DNA of 64,000 nt, from NCBI RefSeq assembly GCF_026712205.1, contig NZ_JAPPUW010000012.1, forward strand, positions 1 through 64,000. The letters run 5' to 3'. Made by a program: the position numbers and the translations under genes. The stretch comes from Pelomonas aquatica. GTDB taxonomy: Bacteria; Pseudomonadota; Gammaproteobacteria; Burkholderiales; Burkholderiaceae_C. Shown in pieces: positions 18,611 to 24,613 of this stretch (within the stretch, counting starts at the first letter, position 1; each line of letters begins with the position of its first letter). Under the pieces are notes generated by a model that worked only from the letters and a program-made list of their open reading frames with translations, made no database searches and was not told where the DNA came from.

Positions 18611-18620
18611 TGGTGCGCGG
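18611..18620 (-). tRNA. Displaced 3' end of the split tRNA-Leu(UAA) (CCGCGCACCA)
   Basis: On the minus strand these ten bases read CCGCGCACCA. Joined to the truncated tRNA-Leu that ends ...CCCGTC at 24470, they complete CCCGCGC-A-CCA. This is the exact complement of that tRNA's 5' strand GCGCGGG plus discriminator and CCA. They lie on the same strand in the right order, with the recombinase element between. A local palindrome GTGCGC-G-GCGCAC overlaps the junction, so a chance match is not fully excluded. Confidence 0.65.
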
Positions 18621-18641
18621 CGCACGTACTAGCAGGTTTTG

Positions 18642-18746
18642 AAAAAATGGACAGCCCCGCAGCCTAGAGAATCAACAACTTAGCGAGGCCAGCCATGTCC
18701 ATCAATTCTTGACAAAAATGGACACGACAGGCCGGTTTTGTCCATT
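18642..18746. repeat. Four ATGGACA motifs near the left end of the element
   Basis: ATGGACA occurs four times in 105 bases, twice direct (AAAAAATGGACAGC from 18642 and AAAAATGGACA from 18714) and twice inverted (ATGTCCAT near 18695 and TGTCCATT at 18739-18746). The last direct and last inverted copies form an 8-bp inverted repeat, AATGGACA / TGTCCATT. TGGACAGC also occurs, facing inward, 49 bases inside the right end. These are candidate recombinase-binding sites. The rest of 18580-18853 shows a short hairpin (18795-18811) and no gene. Confidence 0.6.
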
Positions 18747-18853
18747 CCATGAGGAGGCGTTCGTCGCATGTCGTCGCGCGGGCCGACCGCGCGCCCCCTG
18801 CTTCGCAGGGGCAGGCGACCGATGCTCCTCTGCACCGGCATAGCACTCAACGG

Positions 18854-19231
18854 TTATTGTCTTGAGGTATCCCTACCGCCCTTGAGCTGTACGATTTTGC
18901 CAGCTGTGTACGCCTCAAGCTGCGCCTTCAAGGTATATATCTCGTCAAGCAGGTTGATTTCGCGCTCGATAGATTCATCAAGAAGCTGTCGCAAACTCTT
19001 TTTGTCGTCGGTCAATTGTTTGATCTTAGCCTTTGGCTCAGCCCGCTTTTCCGCAATCTCTTCAGCCGCGGCATCTATTGCCTTGATGAGGTCTTCAAAG
19101 ACCGCTCGTGAGCGCTTTATCGAGCCCTTCTTGTTGCCGGCTTCAATCGCTACGGTGTCGTTATTGATCTTCGAACCGCGCTTTTTAAGCCGCTCTAGCG
19201 CTGCGTAATAGGCCTCAAGTGCTTCAGACAT
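18854..19231 (-). CDS. Small coiled-coil accessory protein of the recombinase element (TnpC-like)
   Basis: The 125-residue protein starts MSEALEAYYAALERLKKRGS. An N-terminal basic segment (INNDTVAIEAGNKKGSIKRSR) could be a DNA-binding helix-turn-helix. It is followed by a long helical, heptad-like region (IDAAAEEIAEKRAEPKAKI to YTLKAQLEAYTAGK). Size, layout and position after the recombinases resemble TnpC of Tn554, which sets insertion orientation or frequency, or the small partner of trio systems. Its start overlaps the end of the third recombinase gene by eight bases, which implies translational coupling. Longer upstream in-frame sequence overlaps that gene and is not used. Confidence 0.75.
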   Translation of the reverse strand: MSEALEAYYAALERLKKRGSKINNDTVAIEAGNKKGSIKRSRAVFEDLIKAIDAAAEEIAEKRAEPKAKIKQLTDDKKSLRQLLDESIEREINLLDEIYTLKAQLEAYTAGKIVQLKGGRDTSRQ

Positions 19232-21158
19232 TGGCCGGGGCCTCCTTGAGCTTCGTTCGGGCACTAAGAAGCGTTTGCAGGTTCTCGACTTCGAGCCGGT
19301 GCTCAACAGAGCCTTGATCCGATGCTGCTAGCGCTGCGATGACAGCTTCTTGAGACTCGATAACCCGCGCGAGACGCTTGCCGAATACCGCTAGGTTCTT
19401 ACAGTTTGTCTTCAGGCATTCATAAGGAATGGCGGACAGGGGACTAGTCTTGCACTCTTCGGTGGAAGTACAACCACCCAGAGGGGTTTCGGAATAGGCC
19501 ATTTCCCCTCGCCTGAAAAGTTCCAGGCCATGTTCCCGTGAATGAACCGAGACAGATGACTCTTTGACCTTATCGCTTCGCGCCCAGGTCGCAGCTCCGC
19601 CAAACAATTCATCATCATTTAGTAGCAATCCGAGGACGTAGCCAAAGTAGCTTGACTCAGCCTTTGCCGCGCTCCATTCATGTGAGAAATGGTCAGTATC
19701 AAATACCAGCGATGCTGCCTTTTGAAAGCCTGCCGAGTAGTACATGGACATCTCTTCCGTGATGTGCTGCAGCTGTGCTTTGAGTGAAGGCAAGGTGACC
19801 ATGCCGCTTCTATGAGCGTAAACAGCCAATGCTCGACGGAACTGATGTGCCCTCATAGGCCACCGCAAGCCCACCTGTATCCCGGTCAGCTCCCAATCCC
19901 GCCCCAATTGCATTCGCTCGAGTTCGGACATGTCCGCTTCTGAGACCACTGGGCATACGTTCTCAACGAGTTCAGTCCATTTGTCCTTCCATCTGTTGGA
20001 TAGCCGAGAGTATTCGGATGGAGTCCCACAGAACAATAGCGGATACTCAGCCTCGCGGGACTCAACTGCAGCCTTCGCACCGATTGCCGCCGAGATCTTC
20101 TGTGCAGCAGATAAGGCGCGGCGCCCGATTTCGTTAGTTACCCAACTCGTCTCGCGCATTTCGCCATTTTCGAGCTTGTAGGTGAAGCCTCGGACTAGCC
20201 AATGACGCTTTCCGCCATGCTCAAAAGAGACGAGGCTGTCTCTCGGTAGGTTGAGCGCTTCGCCAAGGCGCATTCCTGTAAAGGCCACGCATAGAGCTAT
20301 AAGAGTCGTTTGGCAGTCAAGGATCCGGGAGCAAAGAAAATTGTGGACCGTGCCACTCCCTGGCTCTTTACCTAGCTCGTGCGCATAATCGAAGACAGAT
20401 TCCAGCAACCCCTTGCGGTATCGCCCTCGGGCGCTACCAGCCAACTCTTCAGGGATTTCGCTCGTTGCGTTTCTGCTCTGGGCGAAAGCAGCCAAGAGAC
20501 GCTCTAGACTGGACTCAATTTCTTCCAGGTTTGAAATGAGGGATGCAAGGATTGACGAGTAGATGTGGGCAGGAATTAATGGGGTTTGCTGAGAGCCCGG
20601 AGAATCGATGCGCAAACGGTAAAGGTCCTTTTGTATTTTGTCCAGGTCAAAAGAAATACCGTACACCACGCGATTCTTGTACAGCGCCTTCAATAGAACG
20701 CTTGTCGTGGAGAGTTCCCCGGCGTTCTCGGCGTCGATCTTGGCCAGAACTAATTCCGCATTTTCGAGCAGTTGGAATAGCGAAAGACCTTCGGCAACTG
20801 CCCGAACCGCCCATTTCTTCAGCGTCACGTTGACACTGTATATCATCCCAAACGACGGGGCTTTGTTTTTCAAACAAATATACGTCCACAAAAGCGCTTT
20901 TGCTTGCGCCATAACGAGAGACGCCAGCGCGCCGTCTCGCGACGATATGTTGCCTTTCGACGTTTCGGTGAACTCGGTGAGGTGATATAGGCGCTTACTC
21001 TTTTGTCTAGTGGAAGCCGAATAGTCCCAAACGTCGTCGCGATAACGCGAGAGTGGATTACCCTGTCTGTCTCGAGTAGTCACCATTTCTGGATCGAAAT
21101 AGATCGGGCAGGCTGCCGTGTCGGTCGCACTATTTTGCCGGGAAAGCGCCAAGTTCAT
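19224..21158 (-). CDS. Tyrosine recombinase, third of three (about 644 residues)
   Basis: This is a predicted site-specific recombinase. The C-terminal catalytic region shows the first Arg in AFTGMRLGEALNL, the HxxR box in MRAHQFRRALAVYAHR, and a downstream His with candidate nucleophile Tyr in LQHITEEMSMYYS. After the catalytic domain comes a Cys cluster (GGCTSTEECK to YECLKTNCKNL) that may bind zinc, then a helical tail. The ATG at 21158 forms an ATGA overlap with the preceding stop, matching the other junctions in the operon; a start at 21200 is possible. Large recombinases of this type occur in TnpB-like or RitC-like positions. Confidence 0.85.
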   Translation of the reverse strand: MNLALSRQNSATDTAACPIYFDPEMVTTRDRQGNPLSRYRDDVWDYSASTRQKSKRLYHLTEFTETSKGNISSRDGALASLVMAQAKALLWTYICLKNKAPSFGMIYSVNVTLKKWAVRAVAEGLSLFQLLENAELVLAKIDAENAGELSTTSVLLKALYKNRVVYGISFDLDKIQKDLYRLRIDSPGSQQTPLIPAHIYSSILASLISNLEEIESSLERLLAAFAQSRNATSEIPEELAGSARGRYRKGLLESVFDYAHELGKEPGSGTVHNFLCSRILDCQTTLIALCVAFTGMRLGEALNLPRDSLVSFEHGGKRHWLVRGFTYKLENGEMRETSWVTNEIGRRALSAAQKISAAIGAKAAVESREAEYPLLFCGTPSEYSRLSNRWKDKWTELVENVCPVVSEADMSELERMQLGRDWELTGIQVGLRWPMRAHQFRRALAVYAHRSGMVTLPSLKAQLQHITEEMSMYYSAGFQKAASLVFDTDHFSHEWSAAKAESSYFGYVLGLLLNDDELFGGAATWARSDKVKESSVSVHSREHGLELFRRGEMAYSETPLGGCTSTEECKTSPLSAIPYECLKTNCKNLAVFGKRLARVIESQEAVIAALAASDQGSVEHRLEVENLQTLLSARTKLKEAPANV

Positions 21159-22840
21159 ACAAAGCCCAGAAAAGCGAGCTGCTGCATCTTCGCAGCCCAA
21201 TACGCGGTCAATTTGTGGTCCCTGTCAACTTCTACTTCGATGCTAGCGAATAGCTGCTCATTCTTCGTTCTTTGTTCCGCTAGCAGTTCATCTAAAATGC
21301 CAGATACATGGCTGTAGACATTGTCAACGAAGTCATTTGCACCTTGCATCCAACGAATCTTGCGCAGGGAATACCTGAAGCTCAACAGTTTCCTCATGTC
21401 TATCTCATCGGCATAGACGCGGTACTTGCTGCAGAACAAACAGCCTTCTTGACGCCTGCAATCTGGTTGGATAGGAACTGTGGAGGTCGCTGGCTCCGGC
21501 GTGCCGGGTCCCAAGCACCCGCCGACGGGAGTGGGCACCTGGTCCGCGGTCTTGGCTCCCTCTGTAGCCCGTCTAGCCAGCGATTCAAGGTAAGTCCCCA
21601 GTTCATCCGCCTGGTCGCCCTTGCGGCCGTTGCTATAGGCCTTTAAAGCCGTCTCGATCGAGTGACCCATGATCGCCGCTGCGATCGGCAACGGCTCGTG
21701 TCGAACGACGTAGTCCTGCTTGTGCGAGCGCCAGCCCCTGGCAGATATGTTGGCAAGTTCGAGCCCCTGCCTATTCAGCCGCCTACGGAGCATCGGCAGG
21801 AATTCTTTTGAGATGCCCACGGGTTGACGTTGACGATTTTGCGCAATAAACAACGCGCCACAATGATGGTCTTTAAGCATCCAACTCCTAAGGAGCAAAT
21901 ATCTCCTCATTCGTTGCACCGTCGCCAGGGTAAAGGTAAGAGGGACAGATTTGCCACCGGCTCTAAACTTCATTACTCTTTGCCTAGCAGTGGACACCTC
22001 GGGACTCTGCAATTGCTGCACTATTTCGTCATCGAACTGCAGGCCAAGGAACTGCGCCAAGTTGGCTCCGGAGTCAGCAAGTGCCAGCGCCGCCATACAG
22101 AGCGAAGCATTAACAGCTGTATCCCAGTCACTTGCAGCCTGCCCGTCGTAAATCTGCGCCGTATCTCCTGTCGAGGCAACACGCGCTCGAGATAAGATGG
22201 CCTCTACAGATTGGTCGAAGAATTGCGCAATGTCTTGCAGATATCTATCGCTGTCGCTCTGTAAAGGCACAGTCGTTGAACCATTCCCTCGCCGCTTCGT
22301 AAGAAGCGAGAGACTTTCTGCAAAATCTCGCCCATGGGCCAATTGCAGAATCTTATGAGACATCTGGACCGGCTGCGCTGCTGAATTGATTTTTCTAGCG
22401 CCACTGAGAATTAAGGCCTTGCTATATTCGTTGAATGCGCCCAGCGCATTCACTGCACATGATGCGTCATGGAAGATGTCATCGTATTGGAGCCTGTGCT
22501 CTTCGCGGTCCACCCAAGCTAGAAACGATCCGAAGTCTCCAAGGTTAGTCTCGACGGTCCGAGCTCGCCACCCAATTGTCTTGGCTTGGCTGCTCAATGG
22601 CGGAAGCAGTTTGGCAAGTGCTGCGATCCGCTTCTCACAGCGAGAAGCAGGATCAATAATCCAATTTCTGGGATGCTTGTTTGAGGTATCCCTGTTCCGA
22701 TAGCACCACGCCCAAATATGAGTGCGCCTTGTCCCCTGCAACTCGAGCACAAGCCTAGACGGTGAGATCAAATCCGGCAGGTCGTCGAATGGAAAGCTGA
22801 CCTTGACCAGTCCTTGTAGCTGCTGGGCTGCGAAGGTCAT
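21155..22840 (-). CDS. Tyrosine recombinase homologue, second of three, first catalytic Arg apparently missing
   Basis: The 561-residue protein has the C-terminal tyrosine recombinase signature AAAIMGHSIETALKAYSNG with candidate nucleophile Tyr, and an Arg box ISARGWRSHKQD. At the place of the first catalytic Arg, usually TGxR, it reads ADSGANLAQFLGL, so Asn or Leu replaces Arg. The HxxR motif is also altered. A C-terminal Cys group (GGCLGPG, DCRRQEGCLFCSKY) may bind zinc. The start ATG overlaps the upstream stop as ATGA. It may be a structural partner, or the alignment by eye may have missed the Arg. Confidence 0.82.
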   Translation of the reverse strand: MTFAAQQLQGLVKVSFPFDDLPDLISPSRLVLELQGTRRTHIWAWCYRNRDTSNKHPRNWIIDPASRCEKRIAALAKLLPPLSSQAKTIGWRARTVETNLGDFGSFLAWVDREEHRLQYDDIFHDASCAVNALGAFNEYSKALILSGARKINSAAQPVQMSHKILQLAHGRDFAESLSLLTKRRGNGSTTVPLQSDSDRYLQDIAQFFDQSVEAILSRARVASTGDTAQIYDGQAASDWDTAVNASLCMAALALADSGANLAQFLGLQFDDEIVQQLQSPEVSTARQRVMKFRAGGKSVPLTFTLATVQRMRRYLLLRSWMLKDHHCGALFIAQNRQRQPVGISKEFLPMLRRRLNRQGLELANISARGWRSHKQDYVVRHEPLPIAAAIMGHSIETALKAYSNGRKGDQADELGTYLESLARRATEGAKTADQVPTPVGGCLGPGTPEPATSTVPIQPDCRRQEGCLFCSKYRVYADEIDMRKLLSFRYSLRKIRWMQGANDFVDNVYSHVSGILDELLAEQRTKNEQLFASIEVEVDRDHKLTAYWAAKMQQLAFLGFV

Positions 22841-24270
22841 TTCTCTTCTCTTGCTGAAAGCAGCTTGATAAGGTGAGTTCCCCAGCCCTCTTCCGCGCTT
22901 TTGAGCATGTGAAGATTTCTGCGATAGTCAATGTATTTCATCGTGGTTTGTACATTTTTATGCCACATCAACTCTCGAAGTTGATGCATTACCCACTTTC
23001 GCTTCTCCGGATTGCCTTCCACTTCTTTCTCAAAGAAATCAACGAAGTTCATCCCGAATGTCGCTCGCAGATCATGAAATCTATACGAGAAGTCTGGATT
23101 TGACAGCTTCTTCCGAACAAGAGGAATCACACGCTCCAGAATATAATTCCGAAGTCCTTGGGCGATTTTGGCTGATTTAAGCAGCTCATCATTTTCGCGC
23201 TGGCTGTTTCTCTCGTCGACACCTTCGTAGTAGGGCTTGCCGTGCTGCGTCAGGAAAAGGTAGTTTTCTTCGGCGTCTCCAAGCACAGATTTCTCTCGGC
23301 GACGTCGTGCTCTTTCACTTTGCGCGTATGTATACAGGCGTTCATAGAACAACTTCGGAATCGTCAGGTAGACCCCGCTCTTGCTTCGCTTGGTATCTAT
23401 GCCCGTGCCCGGTCCGCATCGCAATTTATAGTCACTGGCAACTTGAGCCGGCGGCCTACTAAAGTGCTTCAAACGAAACGTCAGAATGGTTTGCGCTCTC
23501 GCACCGGTTAACAGTGCTGTCTCATGCATTAGAGACATTTCGGTGTTGCCGAGCTCTCGGAGTGCCGAAATCAACGCTTGTTGCTCCGTTTGAGGAAGCG
23601 GTCGCAGCTTTGCACCGTCATCGATAGAGGCATCCCATGGGTCCGACGAGTTCGGCACAGGGATGCTTATATCCGTCGTCTTGACTCCCATGCTTTGTTC
23701 AAAGCCTTGAGCATCCTTGTACGTGATACTCACCGATCTGTCTTGCCATGGGGAAAAGGCGGGGCGGAAACCGTATCTCTCTTGCTTTTGGAGATGACGA
23801 TAAAAGGCAATAACTGCCGCCATTCGCCGACTGGCGACGCCGTGGCTGGTACTGCCGACTTTCAATAAGTGCAACAGATGCGCGCGATATTGATACGTAG
23901 GCAATGCATATGGCTCGGCCGAATGAAACTCATCCCATTCGTATTCGAACTCTTCAAGAAATGACTTGTAGTGAGCTAAGTCGCCGGCGACGGACCCGAG
24001 TGTCTCCATTGCCAACGGACGAAGCTTCGCTCGATCCAGTAGATAAAGGCAGGCCACTGCCCATGGGCTGCCATCGCCGTTCTTAACGACTGGGAATTTA
24101 AAGAATTTGGTTCCGCGTGCAGTCTTGGAAGCGACTGGCGCGCGGTAGTAGAGTCGCTCTCTGCTTCCCGCAGAAAGGTGGACGCTTGTCGCGTTTGGCT
24201 CGGGCGTCTCAGAAACTCTAGTGATTTGCAGCACTGGCAATCGCTCAGTACTTGGCAGGTTAGACATCAT
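22837..24270 (-). CDS. Tyrosine recombinase/integrase, first of three
   Basis: The 477-residue protein is a predicted integrase with a full catalytic set: Arg in ALLTGARAQTILTFR, HxxR in YRFHDLRATFGMNF, and a late His with nucleophile Tyr near residue 446 in HKNVQTTMKYIDYRR. The N-terminal part should form the core-binding domain. An ATG at 24270 is followed directly by a second ATG, with AAGGAG upstream. The start lies only 30 bases from the 3' end of the element's tRNA-Leu, so transcription may come from, or through, the tRNA gene. It begins the three-recombinase operon. Confidence 0.9.
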   Translation of the reverse strand: MMSNLPSTERLPVLQITRVSETPEPNATSVHLSAGSRERLYYRAPVASKTARGTKFFKFPVVKNGDGSPWAVACLYLLDRAKLRPLAMETLGSVAGDLAHYKSFLEEFEYEWDEFHSAEPYALPTYQYRAHLLHLLKVGSTSHGVASRRMAAVIAFYRHLQKQERYGFRPAFSPWQDRSVSITYKDAQGFEQSMGVKTTDISIPVPNSSDPWDASIDDGAKLRPLPQTEQQALISALRELGNTEMSLMHETALLTGARAQTILTFRLKHFSRPPAQVASDYKLRCGPGTGIDTKRSKSGVYLTIPKLFYERLYTYAQSERARRRREKSVLGDAEENYLFLTQHGKPYYEGVDERNSQRENDELLKSAKIAQGLRNYILERVIPLVRKKLSNPDFSYRFHDLRATFGMNFVDFFEKEVEGNPEKRKWVMHQLRELMWHKNVQTTMKYIDYRRNLHMLKSAEEGWGTHLIKLLSAREEK

Positions 24271-24299
24271 TGCTCCTTGGCGACAATGCCTACCTTGTG

Positions 24300-24385
24300 T
24301 GCTGGGGACGGGACTCGAACCCGTACGAGGATTTACCCTCGGCGGATTTTAAGTCCGCTGCGTATACCGCTTTCGCCACCCCAGC
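24300..24385 (-). tRNA. tRNA-Leu(UAA), complete copy carried by the element
   Basis: It folds as a class II tRNA: acceptor GCTGGGG / CCCCAGC with discriminator A, D-arm, anticodon loop CTTAAAA (UAA), variable stem CGAGG / CCTCG, and T-arm ACGGG-TTCGAGT-CCCGT. CCA is not encoded; ACACA follows. The intact neighbouring tRNA genes all encode CCA. With its sequence differences from the split copy, this suggests a foreign origin. It would supply the UUA-reading tRNA lost by insertion. Confidence 0.93.
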
Positions 24386-24428
24386 CTTGGATGGGCATCG
24401 ACAACATCTGTCGCTGTCCACTTTACCG

Positions 24429-24469
24429 GAAGATGCTTGTACTGCATCCTGAGCCAGAAGATGCTCGTA
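24429..24469. repeat. Direct repeats at the right end of the element
   Basis: GAAGATGCTTGTA (24429-24441) and GAAGATGCTCGTA (24457-24469) are 12 of 13 identical and 28 bases apart. The second ends exactly at the proposed junction with the tRNA fragment. They resemble paired recombinase-binding arms. Confidence 0.65.
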
Positions 24470-24548
24470 GACGGGACTTGAACCCGTACGTCCCTTTCGA
24501 GACGGCGGATTTTAAGTCCGCTGCGTTTACCGATTTCGCCACCCGCGC
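24470..24548 (-). pseudogene. Split tRNA-Leu(UAA): 5' portion without the acceptor 3' strand
   Basis: The 5' strand GCGCGGG, D-arm, anticodon stem-loop with UAA, variable arm CGTCTC-GAAA-GGGACG and T-arm ACGGG-TTCAAGT-CCCGT are all intact. The 3' acceptor strand after the first C is replaced by TACGAGCA, which does not pair properly with GCGCGGG. The expected continuation CCGCGCACCA is found at 18620-18611. The gene is therefore read as interrupted rather than merely decayed. Confidence 0.8.
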
Positions 24549-24573
24549 GCTGGCCGGAGATTATCCGGGCCGC

Positions 24574-24613
24574 ACAAAAGAAAACGGGAGACTCGATTGC
24601 TCGAATCTCCCGT
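24574..24613 (-). terminator. Terminator after the tRNA-Cys/tRNA-Gly group
   Basis: ACGGGAGA (24584-24591) pairs with TCTCCCGT (24606-24613), with a smaller inner TCGA fold. On the minus strand TTTTCTTTT follows. It lies five bases after the tRNA-Gly ending at 24619 and before the split tRNA-Leu. Confidence 0.8.

Follow-up and report, generated by a model that had tools for sequence, protein, structure and literature searches.

An SE-type transposon splits the tRNA-Leu(UAA) gene of Pelomonas aquatica and probably replaces it with a tRNA of its own

The split tRNA-Leu(UAA) gene and its empty site

The window analysed here is a stretch of 64,000 nucleotides from Pelomonas aquatica (NZ_JAPPUW010000012.1), which sits in contig 4 of a 5.12 Mb genome assembly of 56 contigs. 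On its minus strand, a four-gene transposon of the SE (strand-biased circularizing integrative element) type lies inside a tRNA-Leu(UAA) gene and carries a second, whole tRNA-Leu(UAA). The features that define this arrangement are the following.

24470..24548, minus: 5' portion of the native tRNA-Leu(UAA), which breaks off after the first base of the 3' acceptor strand (ARAGORN, sequence reading, empty sites)
24475-24470, minus: CCCGTC, the last 6 bases of the native 5' part; crossover spacer at attL
18627..24469, minus: whole SE-type element, 5,843 bp; no cargo gene recognised
24299..24385, minus: carried tRNA-Leu(UAA) without encoded CCA (ARAGORN; Rfam tRNA, 57.8 bits)
18611..18620, minus: 3' end of the native tRNA-Leu, CCGCGCACCA (empty sites; identical 10-mer at the far end of the Pelomonas sp. 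UHG3 element)

Read along the minus strand, the broken gene runs from 24548 to 24470, ends in ...GGGTTCAAGTCCCGTC and passes directly into TACGAGCA. When the two native halves are joined, the acceptor stem becomes GCGCGGG/CCCGCGC-A-CCA. An earlier note, made from the sequence alone, had described the broken gene, its displaced 3' end, the complementarity of the joined CCCGCGC-A-CCA to the 5' GCGCGGG and a complete tRNA-Leu(UAA) inside. All of its coordinates hold, sequence reading bears out the rejoined stem, and ARAGORN calls the inner tRNA at 24385-24299, with a 3' end that reads A-CACAAG, such that CCA is not encoded. One refinement is that 6 bp (18621-18626) separate the 3' fragment from the end of the element, which leaves 18627-24469 as the element proper. 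The G+C content of the element is 53% (0.50–0.56 along the stretch) versus about 0.63–0.71 around it.

The empty site was surveyed in 20 genomes of the genus. The tRNA-Leu(UAA) gene is uninterrupted in 14, occupied in two (the window's own genome and G015) and broken by a short anticodon-loop insert in two; the remaining two were undecided. The uninterrupted gene contains CCCGTCCCGCGCACCA in three of the 14 empty congeners (G002, G007 and G009), which is exactly the predicted junction of CCCGTC with the displaced 3' end, 24470 being joined to 18620; in the other empty congeners the acceptor stem differs from this sequence. Synteny agrees with the junction: the joined flanks of the window align through it as a single block of approximately 2.2 kb in G001 (82%) and G016 (81%); tRNA genes flank it on one side and murI on the opposite one. 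At the other empty loci the alignment breaks within the spacer that follows the tRNA or covers one flank only. No truncated tRNA-Leu without an element, which the earlier note had set down as incompatible with its reading, was found among the 14 empty congeners. The exact empty sites, and a relative in Pelomonas sp. UHG3 that splits the gene at the same base, agree with its proposal that the element inserts within the tRNA without rebuilding the 3' end. Judged from these comparisons, the split tRNA-Leu(UAA) with its exact empty site is real and not a product of chance.

Two side observations concern the same locus. The insert in G006 and G014 (L024:1778-2092 and L025) is of approximately 230 nt and lies within the anticodon loop of tRNA-Leu(UAA); a group I intron reading of it, based on sequence motifs, found no confirmation in Rfam. 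In the window, a gene for a YjfB-type small motility protein (PF14070; 18292-18579) is located between murI and the tRNA-Leu gene, and tblastn finds a match to it in just 2 of 19 relatives' loci.

The recombinase genes and the class of the element

The four genes of the element are co-directed and lie downstream of the carried tRNA.

22837..24270, minus: gene 1 (intA), IntA-type tyrosine recombinase, 477 aa, full R-H-R-H-Y set (alignment, family profiles)
21155..22840, minus: gene 2, Tfp-type, recombinase-like, 561 aa, Cys-rich C-terminus, box-I Arg absent by eye
19224..21200, minus: gene 3, IntB-type large tyrosine recombinase, 658 aa, R311 H452 R455 H479 Y488
18854..19306, minus: gene 4, Srap-type small protein, open reading frame (ORF) of 150 aa (family profile)

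Gene 1 has 659 relatives among 8,000 candidates scored, and the R-H-R-H-Y set is complete in 28 aligned sequences. The full catalytic set of gene 3 is retained over 36 relatives, with one residue in 35 of the 36. Read by eye over 36 relatives, gene 2 lacks the first Arg (box I), and the Tyr at position 402 is conserved in all 36, although Tfp is described as lacking RHRY in the SE paper (PMC10214605). Profiles made from genes 1-4 of the family itself were run against eight target sequences, the proteins of SE-6945 and SE-6283, and match them one to one. The values for the two elements are 2.6e-44 and 2.3e-39 for IntA, 4.9e-11 and 4.6e-7 for Tfp, 1.1e-45 and 4e-39 for IntB, and 4.2e-5 and 7.5e-5 for Srap, the weakest of the four; the best match outside this diagonal is 0.014. 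On the strength of these one-to-one matches the element is called SE-type. The homologues follow the order IntA-Tfp-IntB-Srap, as in SEs, and the division of the catalytic set, kept in IntA and IntB and missing from the Tfp-type protein by the box-I reading, is likewise that of SEs.

The host clade of the window is Burkholderiales, which lies outside the SE range, and we therefore speak of an SE-type element and not of an SE sensu stricto. According to the 2023 survey, Tfp and Srap homologues are absent from Alpha- and Betaproteobacteria and SEs occur only in Gammaproteobacteria (PMC10214605), a survey observation and not a structural criterion. If the SE-type label is accepted, the Burkholderiales clade extends the SE host range.

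Searches of NCBIfam and Pfam returned nothing informative for genes 1, 2 and 4, and a weak Phage_integrase match for gene 3. Judged by description, a GInt fits less well, as the Arg-lacking protein is the second here and the SE proteins match one to one. A RIT element is ruled out by the protein sizes (477, 561 and 658 aa), the fourth gene and the weak, imperfect inverted ends, RITs having three recombinases of 315-410 aa, all with the catalytic Tyr, and 34-bp terminal inverted repeats (PMC10214605). No relative of the element was found in viral contigs and a single distant match in phages, which makes a phage module unlikely. Plasmids yielded 192 records with gene 1 relatives, all below 60% identity.

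Ends and spacers of the element

The sequences at the two ends are listed below.

24413..24469, minus: attL-side end with motif C TACGAGCATC, a second copy TACAAGCATC and a block ..TAAAGTGGACAG (repeat I1, 73% complementary)
18627-18655, minus: opposite element end, TACTAGCAGG and TGGACAG in mirror order (repeat I1)
18621..18626, minus: 6-bp spacer CGTGCG at attR, foreign to the target (sequence reading; SE rule from PMC10214605)

The related element in Pelomonas sp. UHG3 (G434, locus L039), whose first gene product is 68% identical to that of the window, sits at the identical base and also carries a tRNA-Leu(UAA). One of its ends reads CCCGTC followed by TACCAGCACC; the other reads GATGCTAGTA, then CCCGTC, then the same native 10-mer. 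This perfect 6-bp repeat sets the spacer length at 6 bp. The window has the target's CCCGTC as its left spacer and CGTGCG as its right. In SEs the 6 bp of the target stay beside the intA end and those of the donor are found at the other end (PMC10214605), and by this rule CGTGCG would be the footprint of a donor site. The window and L049 (ATCCGC / AAGCGC, with the boundary as read by us) follow the rule clearly, L044 (ATCCGC / CTCCGC) is consistent with it, and L039, where both spacers are equal, is uninformative. Both ends could be placed for four elements, of which three are 5.8-5.9 kb and one, L049, approximately 38.5 kb; attR of L052 was not found within approximately 40 kb, and attR was not seen for L040, L043, L045 and L048.

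A clade of tRNA carriers

A genome scan gave 95 confirmed loci, of which 80 were kept. In nine of them ARAGORN calls a tRNA no more than 150 nt ahead of intA, each time Leu(UAA), and with the window this makes ten carriers. The core of a native tRNA-Leu(UAA) is present at the attL side, upstream of intA, in 8 of the 9 carriers versus 0 of the 71 non-carriers, 10 of the 80 loci having 300 nt or less of upstream sequence; in L041 a 5' tRNA-Leu half is found at the far end of the element. All ten carriers seen in the Burkholderiales clade thus sit in tRNA-Leu(UAA) genes. The cut falls at the T-arm/acceptor border in two (the window and L039) and in the anticodon arm in eight, where the elements lie along the direction of the tRNA (L043, L044 and L049) or against it (L040, L041, L045, L048 and L052), as a near-palindrome, GCGGACTTAAAATCCGC, permits both orientations.

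Nine carriers have their tRNA between attL and intA; in L041 it stands immediately ahead of intA, and the spacing is similar throughout. This bears on the possibility of two independent events, in which an ordinary element entered a tRNA gene beside a pre-existing tandem duplicate of tRNA-Leu(UAA). The carried and native tRNAs of the window are close enough for such an origin (70 of 86 columns alike). The consistent placement near intA in all ten carriers argues against it, as do the 14 empty congeners, each of which has one tRNA-Leu(UAA) at the locus over the approximately 1.5 kb examined on each side, and we regard a double event as extremely improbable.

Relatives occur in 7 of 399 order genomes and 8 of 399 family genomes, the window's own included (E 1e-40 and 1e-60, respectively), which indicates that the element is rare. 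Among the 120 protein relatives listed, five (P0006, P0022, P0040, P0060 and P0096) start with what appears to be a translated tRNA-Leu, a hint of further carriers in metagenomes. In a tree of gene 1 (50 rows; loci below 36% identity or with short proteins are omitted), 12 carrier rows, seven non-carrier rows and three rows of unlabelled state form one clade with support 100/100. The carrier label changes three times on this tree, and none of 500 shuffles was as low; the three unlabelled rows were omitted from the count, and P0006 and P0060 are labelled as carriers solely by in-frame read-through of tRNA sequence. The simplest history may be one gain and two losses, and other histories may fit.

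The seven sister elements without a tRNA show no tRNA-Leu(UAA) target. Four of them (L042, L047, L050 and L051) begin exactly where a gene encoding a YchF C-terminal domain has its stop codon, as tested with Pfam PF06071 for L047 and by eye for the others. L153 (G573:C1 near 2,659,970) lies inside an ORF that we take, from a motif, to be aminotransferase-like, and the targets of L046 and L080 were not assigned. The presence of a carried tRNA follows the target and not codon use.

Two further loci of the scan are recorded here as side observations. The contig of L078 is titled Helicobacter pylori PMSS1, a metagenome-assembled genome (MAG), and its SE-type recombinase groups near those of Aliarcobacter; the label may be wrong. 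At L099, in Pseudomonas, ARAGORN finds a tRNA-Arg(CCT) on the opposite strand near another SE-type element.

The carried tRNA and its surroundings

The carried tRNA of the window lies between the attL end of the element and intA. An exact pattern search of the window's genome, of a kind that misses any tRNA with an unusual T-loop, matched two tRNA-Leu(UAA) genes, the broken one and the carried one. In seven of the eight other carrier genomes searched (that of UHG3 included, that of L040 not), the carried tRNA is the sole whole tRNA-Leu(UAA) found. The eighth, the MAG G438, has an occupied allele on contig 63 (L135) and an apparently uninterrupted native gene on contig 260 (L144) that continues past the insertion point to the contig end, which suggests a mixed population. 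A split target, a carried tRNA of the same isotype and its standing as the only whole copy, the marks of tRNA-dependent integration, were all found.

The non-carriers L042, L047, L050, L051 and L153 have a block with TGGACA at its end a short way ahead of intA. In nine of the ten carriers the tRNA is placed between this block (TGAACA in L041 and L048) and intA, and the tRNA is thus plausibly the first gene of the recombinase operon; the block was not found in L052. In the co-oriented cases the upstream region of the native tRNA itself survives. Upstream of the broken tRNA-Leu of the window, on the minus strand, lie three tRNA-Gly genes and one tRNA-Cys gene, with one further feature between them and it.

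24584..24613, minus: terminator-like hairpin between tRNA-Gly and the broken tRNA-Leu (consensus match only)

Given this hairpin, the tRNA-Leu was perhaps a separate transcription unit, whose own upstream region would survive.

Replacement of the lost tRNA

We consider it highly probable that an SE-type transposon has split the single-copy tRNA-Leu(UAA) gene and that its own whole tRNA replaces the one that was lost. In the proposed mechanism, an IntA-Tfp-IntB-Srap transposon would integrate site-specifically inside the single-copy gene of the host, with crossover at the 6-bp spacer CCCGTC on the T-arm/acceptor border; neither junction keeps a complete gene. The element would move by the SE copy-out route. 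SEs are reported to leave no empty site (PMC10214605), and the target would accordingly stay unrestored and a full replacement would be needed. The broken gene would then be dead and the carried tRNA expressed and charged, such that the host survives and the UUA codons of the element can be read. The earlier note's account of the locus is supported in substance, its functional compensation by the carried tRNA remaining conditional in the same way.

Several observations weigh against this interpretation. A scan for a sigma-70-like promoter ahead of the carried tRNA found none, and L041 has no 3' tRNA half at attL. UUA is very rare in the host, with none in the 5,426 codons of 11 host genes and two in the 16,218 codons of 37 host ORFs filtered by G+C at third codon positions (GC3), a filter with its own bias against TTA; the host might therefore tolerate losing the tRNA without rescue. 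Such tolerance, for a while at least, would have a parallel in bldA of Streptomyces. The broken gene, moreover, is still called a tRNA by ARAGORN and Rfam (43.6 bits; window 24462-24550).

The codon counts would suit a different role, in which the carried tRNA is incidental cargo for the element's own UUA-containing recombinase genes and is not needed by the host. With 12 UUA in the 1,850 codons of its four genes, against the host figures above, the element is served by the tRNA at least as visibly as the host's genes are. The tRNA-less relatives L042, L047, L050 and L051 nevertheless use UUA (5, 9, 10 and 2 codons, respectively), and the presence of the tRNA tracks the target; a role as mere cargo is in our judgement unlikely. 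The UUA figures for L039 span something other than exactly its four genes and are excluded from this comparison.

The calls on the broken gene, in turn, could mean that it still works, the element end giving a substitute acceptor strand and both tRNAs being functional. ARAGORN indeed folds the junction, relying on an abnormal, extended acceptor stem with mismatches and no CCA after it. By eye, only 2 of 7 pairs form between the native 5' strand GCGCGGG and the element end, and ARAGORN makes no call on the broken gene of Pelomonas sp. UHG3. The eight anticodon-arm elements cut through the middle of the gene, and a new acceptor strand could not mend such a break. A working broken gene is thus very unlikely. 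Since both programs take the broken gene for an ordinary tRNA-Leu(UAA), routine annotation would count two copies.

Variable arm aside, the carried and native tRNAs of L039 differ at one T-loop base near the spacer and at two 3' acceptor bases with their pairing partners; in the window two D-loop bases, outside the target core, differ additionally. These differences are no more than suggestive of a recoding of the target core with pairing kept, by which the element could not target its own rescue copy. For the anticodon arm, the GCGGA/TCCGC stem is absent from the carried tRNA in 8 of 8 anticodon-arm elements and present in 2 of 2 T-arm elements. This part of the recoding argument is weakened by the scarcity of the arm across the order, as only 38 of 300 genomes have it exactly and background could explain its absence; in the window's family it is found in 6 of 9 rows, own genome included.

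A larger reading is offered tentatively, as a possibility that we hold to be somewhat doubtful. A lineage of copy-out transposons may live by tRNA replacement, every insertion putting the element's tRNA in place of the only UUA-reading tRNA gene of the host, with a rescue copy that is recoded at the recombinase core site and which the element therefore could not attack, and with a host that depends on the element. Loss of the tRNA would accompany a move to a site where insertion does no harm, for instance the 3' end of ychF. As hosts barely use UUA and the element genes do, the tRNA may also free expression of the element from the host.

Comparison with known systems

The principle is already known, from mycobacteriophages (2024) and from the bcp-carrying SE-6283. 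In tRNA-dependent lysogeny of mycobacteriophages, integration at tRNA genes likewise destroys and replaces the target, and the tRNA of the phage is reportedly needed (Guerrero-Bustamante and Hatfull 2024, PMC10865867). Those are temperate phages that act at tRNA-Lys(TTT), tRNA-Leu(CAA) and others (PMC10865867), whereas the window holds a four-gene SE-type element of Burkholderiales that acts on tRNA-Leu(UAA), places the tRNA ahead of the recombinases and belongs to a clade with two target positions. Ordinary tRNA-targeting islands (Islander, PMC4383910) share the tyrosine integrase and the tRNA gene target; there the gene is restored from a fragment on the island, whereas the window element restores nothing.

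Among transposons, SEs resemble the window element in their four colinear homologous genes, 6-bp spacers, site specificity and carriage of a copy of the disrupted target, bcp (PMC10214605); SE-6283, whose integration site is bcp, brings a bcp homologue with it (PMC9345347). The difference is that bcp is a protein gene on the far side of the four genes, whereas the tRNA here lies upstream of intA. GInt / Tn6571 has three recombinase-like genes, a small protein and 6-nt staggered cuts (Bardaji 2017, PMC5385486), but the protein without the first Arg is GinC, whereas here it is the product of the second gene, as in SEs. Tn552-II of Staphylococcus also carries a gene like its target and has a 'brought-in' att at its right end, and differs in its Tn554-type tnpABC, its protein gene and its 7-bp att (PMC12486829). 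In a literature search, with most subscription papers and all supplements outside it, no SE or GInt was found to bring along a tRNA matching the tRNA gene that it targets; the word tRNA occurs zero times in the main texts of PMC5385486 and PMC10214605.

What is new is the tRNA in an SE-type transposon and its placement ahead of the recombinase genes and, less certainly, a recoding of the core that the element itself targets. The destroy-and-replace mode of integration at tRNA genes, described in 2024 for mycobacteriophages, would thus occur in a quite different class of mobile DNA. A chromosomal tRNA gene could be swapped for a foreign one in a single step, with tRNA annotation misled in the process, and the carrier and non-carrier sister elements provide a ready comparison for the joint evolution of target choice and rescue gene. 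Together with the bcp-carrying SEs, the case suggests that elements which leave their target unrestored repeatedly resort to carrying a copy of it.

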